A stretch of 64,000 bases of DNA, from the NCBI GenBank assembly GCA_963920765.1, contig OY987242.1:38429264-38493263 (forward strand), read 5' to 3'. Below are positions 8,763-14,275 of the stretch, one piece after another (the stretch's first letter is position 1; each line of letters opens with the position of its first letter). The stretch comes from Ulota crispa (taxonomy: Eukaryota; Streptophyta; Bryopsida; Orthotrichales; Orthotrichaceae). Both the position numbers and the translations under genes were made by a program. Below the pieces are notes generated by a model. It was given only the letters and a program-made list of their open reading frames with translations. It was not told where the DNA came from and ran no database searches.

Positions 8763-11700
8763 TTATCCTGAGACCACTGTATCTGGAGACTCTTCATCAT
8801 TGGCAGCACATGCTTCATCAGGAAGAATGATCAGATCTTCATTCATGGCTTGAATAGCTTCATCTCCAGCCAATATGTTCGCTTCGGCAACATCGTCGTC
8901 AACATCATCATCGATAACGTCGTCATCGTCGTCGTCATCGTCTTCATCCGATGCTTGACCCTTCTTCCTTCTCCCTCTGTATCCTGGAGTCGTCTCCCTG
9001 TCTGCTCCCATACTTTTTCGACTCTTGACACCTGATACCTCCACCTTCAGCATATTCGCCTCGTATTTGAGGTGAAATGGCACTCGGAACTCAAACGGTT
9101 TCATGTCAGTAAACTCCAACATCGTGGGGGTTTTTCTGGCCACGTCACATTGAGATCGGCATGCCGAGGTTAGTGAACTATGCATTATCACAATGTTAAA
9201 TTTGAAAATTTAGCACTTTTTTTTAGAATGATTGTTATCACTGCTCTCCACTATGCTAAAGTAGAATAAGAGCATATTGTATCAGGCTTCAGCAGTTAAT
9301 ACAACAAGTACTATAGGTATTTGCTCCACGAGAGCAAGCTCAGGAAGGTATGTGTGAATCAGGACAATTTTGTTTCCACGAAGAGATGAATAACAGAGAC
9401 AGGATACCATACCGGAAAATCTCATGTTCTGTTGTTTTCTGCAAAAGAAAACAGCGTGCAAAAAATCCTTCCTGTCCAGGTTTGTCTGCCTCCAGTTTTT
9501 CGCAGCTAATTGTGCTCTCTTCCACGTACTGCCCACAAACGCCACATCATTTTGGTCAAAGTCTGACGACGCACTGGAACATCAGCCAAAACCATATGAA
9601 GGAAAAAACAGCCCTGAAATGAAAATCACTAGTAACGGAGCCCCGATATGATGCAAACTCCTGCAAGAGTCGCTGCAAAGTGTCTACAAGCATCGTGGTC
9701 GTAAGTTGACGATGCCAACTACAAATGGTCCACCCAAAACAGAGCAAGTACGGTACAAAAAATGCTCAAATATCCAAGGTAAGACAGTCTAGGTACATAT
9801 AATGAACTCACCACAAAATAACGACACGATGTTTCAGCATTACAGATCGCCCACACCTCGTTGTTTCCTGGGTACACAAAATAAGAGTTTTCAAACTTGA
9901 CAAAACTTGTCACCCTGTTTCAACAACCCAACTTCAGGTCAGAAACGTCAAAAAACAAGGTAAACTCAGCCATAGCATACGGTCTCCATCAACGTACGAC
10001 CTCACGTCTCCATCAACGTACGAACTCACATCTCCATCAGCGTACGAACTCAACGCACAAACTTAGGTCTCCATCACATTTCATTATGGACACTCTGTTC
10101 CCCCCAACCTTACAAATTTGTTCAGATCAGAAATAAACTGTCATTTTAAGCATAAACATACAATTTGCAAGGTACGCCTAGAATAATCACGTTAATATAG
10201 AGCAATGGAGACATTTCGTTCTATGCATCGGATCAATCTTGCAGAAAATCAAGCACATAGCTAAAGGCTGATCAAATAGGAAAAATGTGGACTCAGATTT
10301 GTGCACCTGTGGGAGAACGCAAGCCATGAGTCCTGAATGTCTGCTACCTGGCGTAGCTTCAACAAACCAACCCCTCGGCGCGGATTCCACTCATCCACTT
10401 CACCTTTAATGTAGTTAGGCGTCATTTCCAGATAGTGCCTGCAATTTGCAGATAGGTTAGAGCACTACCCTAAAATCAAATCGATCAAACAGAGAGCACA
10501 ACAGGTGGTGAAGAAAACAGGATATTCACACAAAGCTAGATTGCTAAAGAGCTCATGGCTAGCATCGTAACTCACAACATTCTTGTAGCAGACACCACAC
10601 AATTACGTTCTACTCAATAAAAGTTGCAAAAATGTCATCAACAGAGTACACAATGGCTAGACATTTGTTGGTAGTGAAAAATGTGATGGTCTATGAGCTT
10701 CAAGAAACGAAGCTAACAAAGAGGCGGTAATGAACAAGGGGTTCACATTTCAATTTTCAAAGGAAGCTTCGTAAGGTTGCGTTTATTTTTAGGTCCCGTA
10801 ATTGGAGAGAATCTGTCCCCAGTTCTCGATTTGATGACAGCATACCAATTTGGTCTCCCATTTTCATTGAACAAAGCCCATACCTGCCAATCAGCAATTA
10901 GTACCACACTATTAGGTCGGGAACGGTATCATTACTATGAGATTATCCAAAAACCAAGCATGCATGTTGCTGCGCCTCGCCAAACATGACACAGGTCATA
11001 ATAAGAGTGAAAAAGTGCATACATCACCGGGTTCCATAGCTGATAACTCCTCCTCCTTCACCGAGCCAGTAAATTTTACTGGTTTTCCTTGGGAACGAAC
11101 TGAACGTTTCAGGAAGGGACTAGTGAGGTATGCAATGACTTTCACCTGAAACCTCCACAAAGGCATTTGTCAGACATTCATAGATTTGTTCTAACGAATT
11201 TAATAAGACCGGGATTGATGAGCAAATATTTTTGAACTGAAATAACAATCCCAATGTGATGTTGCAAGCAGTTGCATGGTGACACGTTATCTGATAATTG
11301 AACGGTTTCCAAGTCTGTTAGTTAGCATATTAGTGCAGGAGGTAACCTTTGAAACCTTTTCAGCTGAAAAGATAAGAAGATGAATCATACCGAAAAGGTA
11401 TTGCCGAGTAAAGACCACCGATCAAAGTCTCTCATGCTCTCCTGGCGGATTATCGTTGTATCCCAAACTTCTGGTTCAAAAAACTCACGTGACGCCCTGC
11501 TCTTACGCAGCTCTCTTGTGGAAGACCGTTGTACAGGGCTCGGCTTAGGCACCTTCGTTTTCCTAGAAAGACAAACCCAACATTCCAAATAAGCCCAGAA
11601 TGTGAAGGCGCCGTCAGTTTCCTCCTGCCAATCCAAGACCATTCAAAACTTTGAAAGGACATTGTTAGGACCAGCAAACAAAATATAGCTAACGCAAACG

Positions 11701-14275
11701 CAAGCCTTATTCAAATTATTTAGAATGGAATAATTCAGATCTTCCGATAGGCCAGTCCTAACATGTCAGTCAGATGGCAGAAAATATAATAGCACCTACT
11801 CAAGATATTTTCAACTAGAACCATATCGCAATAAAAAACTCGGATTCTTCTTCATTAGCTTACACTGGTGACTTCACGACTTGCTTCATGGCTTCTCGTA
11901 CCACAATATTCGTGTAATCTCGAGGATAGCCCATGAGCACCTCAATTTCTGTCGGTTTCATATAACGCGGTATGTTGGTTTTATTGTCCAGAACGAGTTC
12001 CAGTCTCACAGTACTACCCTTGTACATGTTGCTGCAAAGAATGACCTGAGCACTCCGTGAATGTTAGGAAACAAGTTCAGCAGAGACGTAACATGCTCAC
12101 TAGAGATGAAGAAATTTTAGTCTAAATGTCAAGCCCTTACTCCACATTTCTGCTCCGGTGCAAGTGCATCCTCAAGGCAGCTTTGAAGAGACGTGGATGG
12201 GTGATCTCGTAAACGAGGCAGCCGTGGAGGAGGAGGAATGTTCGACCAGTACAAACGGCGGCGCCTACCAGGTGTGATCTCTTGAGAGTCTAACTCCAGG
12301 GGGGGCAACTTCAGATGCCTACTGATCTCATCTCGGTCTACCCAAGACATTGATGCAACATTCTCCACGAGGAACCTGGGAAACGAATGGTGATAAACAT
12401 CGAGGTCAAAATACGTAAACAAGATGAAGACATGATCCCTCCAACTCCTGAATAATAGCTGGCTTCTCCGTCTCAACTACTGAACGTGAACTCTCTGCTG
12501 AACCATGGAATTCCCGATGAGAACACGGCCCGTGCCTAAAGAAAAAAAATGCACACTTTCAAACGTCACACGATAGAATATTGCACGAGTGTTGTTACCA
12601 TTTAGGTTTGAAAATCTGTAATACACGAAGAAGGTCGAAGAAGAGTTTACTTCTGCTTCCGTGAAGCCTGGTAGAAAAAAACTACAAATGATCACACCAG
12701 CAGCCAAACACAGCCATCGCCAGCATTCCATTATTAGTCATATTTCAAATTAATCGTGACGTGCACATCTTAGGAAACAGACACTGCTTCAGCGAAATTC
12801 ATTCTGGAACTCAAATGTCAATTCGGCTGCAGCACCACCCTTCAATAAGCACAGCAGTCCTTCAACTGTATTCCTTCGACTGCCAGGCACATCTGGATAA
12901 TAACAATACATTATGCATAAATAAAAAGCAAATACAAAATTAAGCAACCACAAGTTGTGAGCCTCACCCTTCCTTTTTACCCATGATGGTTAGATCCTGA
13001 CATGGAAAGCCACCAACCACGAGGTCCACCTTCTCAGGTATGGCGGAAAGCTCCAGCTTCATTACATCACCCACATGTTTAACAGTAGGATGTCGGACTT
13101 TTAGCACTTGTATTGCTGTCTTCTCCTGCAACGAAACACCCAAGCGATAACTAACATAAGGAACTTACAATATCACATACGATTGCAATGATGAAGGATT
13201 AGCACAGTGTGTTAAAATGTCTGAACCCTAGGTGCCCAAACAAAAAATAGTAAGTTGAACTTTCAAAGCTATGGTAATTGATCAAGTATTTTCCAGAGCA
13301 TATATCAATCATTCAAAAACGTTGGACTTATTTCTTCTTTCTATTGGGGCGCTATTTTCCCTTCTTTGATTCTTCTTAAATGATTTATTTCACCTCATAT
13401 ACATACTGGAGCATGTTTGGCCACCGAGGGGTCAATTTATTAATGCGTTGGCACAAAACTTGGATTGCTACAAACATTCCCTAGTTTCTAAGAAAGAAGC
13501 AAACGTAGTGAGAAAGGACTAGACCAAGCACCATTTCATTGCTTTGGAAGCAGGAAGTTCCCAGTTCCGTTCGTGATCTTTCTATAACTTTTTGGATCCT
13601 TCTCAGAGTGTTCCGGGCATAAAGGAGCAGACTTTTTTGTCCCGAATTTCTGGCTTCTCTCGGTTTGCATAATGTTTAAACCAACTTTGAATCAATATTA
13701 AATTGAGGTAGAAATGACTGAAAGAGCTGGAAGGTGGACTTTTTCTCTCACTTACCACTTCAGAGCTATAGCCACTGAACGGGATGCCAAGGTTTGTGAG
13801 CGCTTGCCAGATTCCACCGAGTCCATCAAATAGACTGAGCACTACCAGCGGGGCACCTGTCCATGGCTCACCCTCTGCCTTGAATGCAGACAACCAATCC
13901 CCGTCTTCTGCACATTCAAAGTCCATCTGCTCCGAGTTTACCAGTCAGGCTTGGAACAGGTACTGAGCAGGAGGAGCCTCTCTTCTCCGGCTGTACGTTG
14001 ATATACCATACTTTATATTTTATGAATGGAAAGCAAAGAATTAAACAGTGTGATATAAGTTTGTTAAGATAGACGAGGACCTTGCAGCCCTGAAGGATGG
14101 AGAAGGTGTCGTTCGGCATCGGGCCTCCAGGGGTGGCCAGGAGGCCAATCGAACGACCCCTTACTCTTTTGGTAACCGGGATTGGGTCGTCATTCTTAAT
14201 TCCACACCGACACGTCCGCTTCAAACGTTCAGCATCCTTCTTCAGATCCTCAATTTTCTCAAGGATGTTGTCCAT
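8763..14275 (-). CDS. DNMT3: DNMT3-type DNA (cytosine-5) methyltransferase with DUF3444-like C-terminal region
   Basis: Predicted nuclear de novo cytosine-5 DNA methyltransferase. My 12-exon model (14275-14081, 13926-13756, 13125-12968, 12471-12141, 12045-11864, 11562-11391, 11145-11023, 10883-10747, 10438-10307, 9914-9812, 9528-9413, 9177-8763) keeps phase throughout and gives about 744 aa. Motifs run in the normal, unrearranged order: I (VLSLFDGLGG, about residue 94), SEV and VRH as in DNMT3, IV (GGFPCQDL, catalytic Cys about 164), VI (ENVASM, about 211), a GYP block, then IX/X (LLGNTFSVKVIAYL, about 397-410). That order excludes DRM. No PWWP or ADD domain is seen; the N-terminus has a short coiled-coil-like start with CRCG. 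Residues about 441-570 resemble DUF3444 (VWALFNENG, FSHRV, YPGNNEVWAIC). The tail has a run of eight Asp. Least certain: the 5' edge of exon 4 (12471) and exon 11. Confidence 0.88.
9981..10076. repeat. Tandem repeat within an intron of the DNMT3-like gene
   Basis: About three and a half tandem copies of a 25-bp unit containing GTCTCCATCAACGTACGA, with unit-to-unit changes, lie in the intron between exons 9 (10307) and 10 (9914). The open frame across it only reflects the repeat. Confidence 0.7.

Follow-up and report, generated by a model that had tools for sequence, protein, structure and literature searches.

In the moss Physcomitrium patens, both DNMT3 proteins combine a DNMT3 enzyme with DUF3444, as do those of non-flowering streptophytes generally, according to the available passages of Yaari et al. 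(2019; PMC6453930). The same passages attribute heterochromatic CHH and de novo CG/CHH methylation to PpDNMT3b, without RNA-directed DNA methylation (RdDM) or small-RNA guidance, and describe the link of DNMT3 to H3K9me2 as likely indirect. In an excerpt of a second report, the place that PWWP and ADD take in animals is occupied in land-plant DNMT3s by a domain of unknown function (PMC12344493). In this study, we analyzed a 64,000-nucleotide stretch of the Ulota crispa genome (contig OY987242.1, positions 38,429,264 to 38,493,263; hereafter, the window), in which the minus strand at 14275-8763 carries one gene for a methyltransferase followed by DUF3444. The locus is very probably an intact-looking plant DNMT3 gene, with the enzyme and DUF3444 in frame, selection on both, and a function presumed from that reported in moss. 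The combination is real and its architecture is already published; it is not a new kind of gene. The initial annotation had asked how far this architecture is documented, and the portions of the two reports cited above answer that question.

Results

Gene structure and joining of the two domains

The gene has 13 in-phase exons and encodes approximately 721 residues, as read from splice sites and paralogs. The start codon is at 14275 and the stop codon at 8765-8763, as initially annotated. Every intron of the model has GT-AG sites, and all phases close. The protein consists of a DNMT3-type methyltransferase, a DUF3444 region, and an acidic tail. The exons are as follows (window coordinates; lengths are given where they are shared with paralogs).

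Exon 1, 14081..14275, minus strand: ATG start and N-terminal segment MDNILEKIEDLKKDAERLK
Exon 2, 13756..13926, minus strand: motif I (VVLSLFDGLGG) to SSEV; 171 nt in the window gene, L043, and L044
Exon 3, 12968..13125, minus strand: VRH and motif IV with GGFPCQ; 158 nt in the window gene and three paralogs
Exon 4, 12599..12667, minus strand: LHGSRSKLFFDLLRVLQIFKPK; 69 nt in the window gene and three paralogs
Exon 5, 12141..12375, minus strand: motif VI (FLVENVASM) and motif VIII (RRRRLYW); 235 nt in the window gene and three paralogs
Exon 6, 11864..12045, minus strand: motif IX region to YPRDYTNIV, then the beginning of a variable insert; lengths differ among paralogs
Exon 7, 11391..11562, minus strand: weakly conserved insert, then the start of motif X (LLGNTFS)
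Exon 8 (bridge), 11023..11145, minus strand: remainder of motif X (VKVIAYLTSPF), linker, and start of DUF3444 (EPGD); 123 nt in the window gene and three paralogs
Exon 9, 10747..10883, minus strand: first half of DUF3444, VWALFNENGRPNWYAVI
Exon 10, 10307..10438, minus strand: first half of DUF3444 to FSHR; 132 nt in the window gene and three paralogs
Exon 11, 9812..9914, minus strand: beginning of the second half of DUF3444, VYPGNNEVWAICNAE; 103 nt in the window gene and three paralogs
Exon 12, 9413..9528, minus strand: YVEESTISCEKLEADKPGQEGFFARCFLLQKTTEHEIF, replacing a reading in another frame; 116 nt in the window gene and three paralogs
Exon 13, 8763..9135, minus strand: end of the second half of DUF3444 (FEFRVPFHLKYEANMLKVEV), basic patch, acidic tail, and stop

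Exons 1-11 were joined via splice-site reading, and the 3' end (exons 12 and 13) was re-modelled by homology with three paralogs. The in-phase joining proposed in the initial annotation holds; its count of 12 exons does not, and its 3' end had to be replaced. After 9812, exon 12 (9528-9413) is read in the YVEESTISCEKL frame; the most likely start of exon 13 is 9135. The three paralog loci have frames that match those of the window near 9528-9413 and 9135-8763, and a phase-2 junction can be placed in each. In a blastn comparison with the closest paralog, L043, the blocks of DNA similarity coincide with the exons, exons 12 and 13 included. An alternative acceptor for exon 13 at 9177 gives 14 more residues. 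It was used in an earlier 13-exon model (735 residues), and 9135 was preferred as the more probable site because it agrees with the paralogs. A model resembling the 12-exon one, in which the tail follows the ASSDFDQNDVAFVG frame, was rejected because no closing splice phases were found and the three paralogs keep the other frame; its tail extended the Pfam match of DUF3444 to profile position 205, at 36.9 bits versus 36.7 bits without the tail, which slightly favors that frame.

Three further DNMT3-DUF3444 genes are present in the genome, namely L043 (C4), L044 (C1, near 1.11 Mb), and L045 (C7), making four with the window gene. Pfam found both DNA_methylase and DUF3444 in all four, with PF11926 above the cut-off each time. 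Exons 3, 4, 5, 8, 10, 11, and 12 are of equal length in the four genes, and exon 8 stands in the same place in the three paralogs. A first exon of like kind (MD..I.KI..L) occurs in L043 and L044. None was recognized in L045, the weakest paralog model, which has one GC donor and an exon 6-7 boundary inside the variable insert. At that place the aligner had to introduce a frame break, and the boundary used is one among several solutions that keep the frame open. The first-exon sequence (MDPVIEKIEELKRETELVRQ) occurs a second time approximately 600 bases upstream of L043 exon 1 (near L043 position 7811, minus strand).

In translation, exon 8 (VKVIAYLTSPFLKRSVRSQGKPVKFTGSVKEEELSAMEPGD) completes motif X and leads into the opening residues of DUF3444. 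The methyltransferase and DUF3444 are read as one protein because this single exon carries parts of both and because the three paralogs share this 123-base exon. The central claim of the initial annotation is borne out in this respect.

The methyltransferase part

Pfam recognized DNA_methylase (PF00145) in the 721-residue protein (E 1.1e-28, 101.1 bits, cut-off 22). The C5 methyltransferase motifs are in canonical order: I in exon 2, IV in exon 3, VI and VIII in exon 5, the IX region in exon 6, and X in exons 7-8. A search of solved structures matched 63 distinct sequences, of which the best 60 were listed, and the first 29 of these rows were DNMT3A, DNMT3B, and DNMT3C (E 1.5e-27 to 8.8e-20). 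Next among the matches listed were HhaI (2.1e-15), 4onj (2.4e-11), and HaeIII (9.1e-11), and the further relatives listed included DRM2 (1e-7), DNMT2 (3.4e-6), and DNMT1 (1.7e-4). The entry 4onj is titled just "DNA methyltransferase" and is presumably a plant DRM. By E-value among the matches listed, the window enzyme ranks nearer to DNMT3 than to DNMT1, DNMT2, DRM, and the bacterial enzymes. The motif order given in the initial annotation is thus upheld, and the residue strings that it named (SEV, VRH, ENVASM, EPGDVWALFNENG, FSHRV, and YPGNNEVWAIC) are all present in the spliced protein. Before motif X, the protein has approximately 54 residues more than DNMT3A, and these vary strongly between paralogs (11-37% identity at the aligned positions).

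At E-values up to 0.1, the only Pfam families in the 721-residue protein were DNA_methylase and DUF3444; PWWP, ADD, chromodomain, BAH, and UBA were not reported, in line with the earlier observation that PWWP and ADD are not seen. A six-frame search of the genome, which split domains can escape, gave no PWWP near the window gene and three PWWP matches elsewhere. The genome search for ADD gave no match and carries little weight, as its control also failed to give one.

The DUF3444 part

The Pfam check suggested in the initial annotation placed both domains above their cut-offs; for DUF3444 (PF11926), the match had an E-value of 1.9e-7 and 31.3 bits (cut-off 26.1) and covered profile positions 17-128 of 211. 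A short piece scores higher (36.7 bits) than the accepted full-length model (31.3 bits), to whose match the second half contributes nothing. Support for the second half comes from other DUF3444 proteins in this genome, to which it aligns, and not from Pfam. Aligned with five of these, the DNMT3 version keeps landmarks from both halves; in an alignment of the four DNMT3 and four other DUF3444 regions, 19 columns across both halves are invariant, including WA, P..Y, LE, FSH, and P...E.W. Unlike the others, the DNMT3 version lacks an ELDPASTP-like end, and its first half contains an additional loop. It is split over six exons, whereas three of the other proteins carry the domain in one open frame. 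A six-frame search of the genome (274.8 Mb, 157 contigs) with PF11926 gave seven matches in five places, the four DNMT3 genes not among them. In these genes the domain is split over exons, and the result must not be read as absence.

DUF3444 is probably made up of a pair of similar units; both contain a strand of the WA(L/I/V) type and have an end of the F(S/E)(H/F)RV type. For an internal repeat, hhalign gave a score of 30.2 over 77 columns when the five non-DNMT3 sequences were used, a value reached by 0 of 60 column-shuffled controls. With the nine-sequence set, the score was 30.4 (again 0 of 60), but just 15 columns were aligned; the four DNMT3 sequences alone did not support the repeat (17.6; 2 of 60 controls as high). 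Among solved structures, an eight-sequence profile matched only the YTH domains of Mmi1 (eight rows, E 0.23-0.34), which were treated as chance. A four-sequence profile gave no solved structure up to E 10. Among viral contigs, 21 pattern matches to DUF3444 were obtained and none was confirmed.

Several other DUF3444 loci of the genome have recognizable neighbors, and two of the five places found in the six-frame search are associated with an XRCC4 N-terminal domain. On C4, XRCC4 (E 8.2e-15) and DUF3444 (E 2.1e-54) share a single open frame (L001, G000:C4:24536711-24537331 and upstream). On C7 (L004/L006, G000:C7:18476986-18478081), an XRCC4 match (E 7.5e-10) is located immediately upstream of DUF3444, in an open frame of the same strand. 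No report of XRCC4 paired with DUF3444 was found in a literature search. The C6 protein carries Zn_ribbon_20 (E 1.1e-10), with no DnaJ domain in the frame scanned. Upstream of a further DUF3444 gene (L005/L007, G000:C8:20568902-20569575), a frame without a Pfam match contains the stretch GRRGRPPGSKG, which we take to resemble an AT-hook.

Selection and a truncated copy

The ratio of nonsynonymous to synonymous substitution rates (dN/dS) was calculated by the Nei-Gojobori method on pairs of the window gene and its paralogs. Against L043, it was 0.18 for the enzyme (234 codons), 0.12 for the first half of DUF3444 (122 codons), and 0.22 for the second half (105 codons). Between L044 and L045, the enzyme gave 0.08 and the first half of DUF3444 0.11, at a dS near 2. 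The remaining three ratios, all for the second half, were 0.26, 0.37, and 0.49; dS was saturated in 10 of the 18 pair-by-region comparisons, which gave no ratio. These values indicate that selection holds both parts. Constraint on the first half of DUF3444 is therefore about equal to that on the enzyme, and constraint on the second half is weaker.

A truncated copy of the window gene, L046 (G000:C1:37756000-37763500), lies 0.68 Mb off on the opposite strand. Two blocks are 90.7% and 90.5% identical to the window, introns included; the window stretch 11499-12436 is missing, and a frame break is present. In exons 8-9, six substitutions and a deletion of one residue separate the two copies.

A dispersed element family with a methyltransferase-like frame

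A family of dispersed repeats that carry a C5-methyltransferase-like frame was observed at L049:3946-5097 (plus strand) and roughly 90 other places of G000. The L049 frame matches PF00145 (E 1.7e-8). The own-genome search gave 151 candidates; 107 of them were scored and yielded 109 match rows, some copies having two or three, and by our count three are free of internal stops. Structure was read in L049 and L056-L061. Eight unmodified frames from other copies were compared with Pfam, and five scored above the cut-off: one with RVT_1 (8e-21), one with RNase H and Integrase_H2C2 (4e-22 and 2e-7), one with Integrase_H2C2 (2.5e-16), and two with a PHD finger (1.4e-11 and 6.6e-9). A further PHD match fell below the cut-off (2.9e-4); the gag-like and protease-like frames had no Pfam match above the cut-off. 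Direct repeats of 297 bases, 9.3 kb apart and 92% alike, are present in L056, one of the seven slices. Our reading is that the family may represent an old Ty3/Gypsy-type long terminal repeat (LTR) element, with the methyltransferase before the reverse transcriptase and the PHD finger at the end. Against this reading, the methyltransferase frame had no solved relative at E 0.01, and a 221-residue frame from another copy gave no DNA_methylase match. In the text available, methyltransferase-bearing elements of this type are described as absent from land plants (PMC6338049) and present in a charophyte (PMC5890265). A literature search of titles, abstract starts, and passages found no report of such an LTR element in a land plant.

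Discussion

By analogy with its moss ortholog, the window protein would act like PpDNMT3b, with the same chemistry in heterochromatic CHH and de novo CG/CHH methylation. DUF3444 would direct the enzyme to the chromatin on which it acts or to protein partners, and its targets may be CMT or H3K9me2-bearing chromatin. For the means by which a DNMT3 that lacks PWWP, ADD, and chromodomain finds heterochromatin in non-flowering plants, the conserved, selected DUF3444 is an obvious candidate; the initial annotation had proposed it as a possible replacement for the animal chromatin readers.

Of the alternatives, the one that survives best is that the enzyme is intact and DUF3444 has no targeting role, serving as a folding or stability element or as a chaperone-linked module. 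DUF3444 is best known from J-proteins and is named in two papers on J-protein families. The Zn_ribbon_20 protein points the same way, though no DnaJ domain was found in the frame scanned. Against it stand the two XRCC4-like N-termini, a DNA-repair context; such nuclear company suggests chromatin work, by guilt of association, and we regard the alternative as rather unlikely. That the window gene is a decaying copy is very improbable: L046 shows that copies do decay here, but the window gene has 13 open exons with GT-AG sites and dN/dS of 0.12-0.22 against L043, and the deletion and all but one of the six substitutions in exons 8-9 fall to the L046 side (by eye, with L043 as the outgroup). We give almost no credence to two adjoining genes falsely joined by over-eager exon chaining; the model was drawn from genomic DNA and the Pfam score of DUF3444 is modest (31.3 bits), but the open frame of exon 8 spans the junction, the order and the 123-nt exon recur in three paralogs, and the available text of a 2019 report describes the same protein organization (PMC6453930).

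An intact DNMT3 gene with a targeting DUF3444 thus remains our preferred reading, and several points weigh against it. The gene model comes from genomic DNA, its function is carried over from another species, and the targeting role is one that we infer. Pfam covers only the first half of DUF3444, likewise in each of the four DNMT3 genes, and no significant solved-structure relative of the domain was obtained with profiles of eight and four sequences. Because the paralog exons were modelled with the window protein as the guide for alignment, similar boundaries are favored. The window copy may be a minor one because the genome has four such genes. In the passages available, the other P. patens paralog, DNMT3a, showed no global effect (PMC6453930).

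As a gene find alone, the locus is ordinary. The four DNMT3-DUF3444 genes and the XRCC4 proteins with the same domain provide material for testing DUF3444 targeting. A broader scenario, possible but doubtful, is that DUF3444 might be a two-unit chromatin-docking module that moved among early land plant nuclear proteins (DNMT3, XRCC4-like proteins, and J-type chaperones) and took over the job of PWWP and ADD in DNMT3. The loss of DNMT3 in flowering plants would then have removed the whole small-RNA-free targeting route.

Among known systems, the CMT marks (chromodomain and BAH) were not found in the window protein by Pfam at E-values up to 0.1. It shares with plant DRMs a DNMT3-related catalytic domain; in DRMs, the motifs are rearranged (X before I), whereas the window gene is not rearranged and has no UBA in the Pfam scan. 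The genome also has two DRM-type methyltransferases, L024 (G000:C6:9702947; DNA_methylase E 5e-13) and L027 (C11:6183260), with motif X (KALGNSFS) before motif I in one frame. Animal DNMT3A and DNMT3B share with the window protein the catalytic domain, motif order, and ENV motif; unlike them, it has PCQ for PCN, the variable residues before motif X (approximately 54 extra), and DUF3444 behind the enzyme, with PWWP and ADD not found. It is most like PpDNMT3a and PpDNMT3b of P. patens, with an N-terminal DNMT3 methyltransferase domain, a C-terminal DUF3444, and no chromodomain; unlike P. patens, for which the text available reports two DNMT3 genes (PMC6453930), U. crispa has four.

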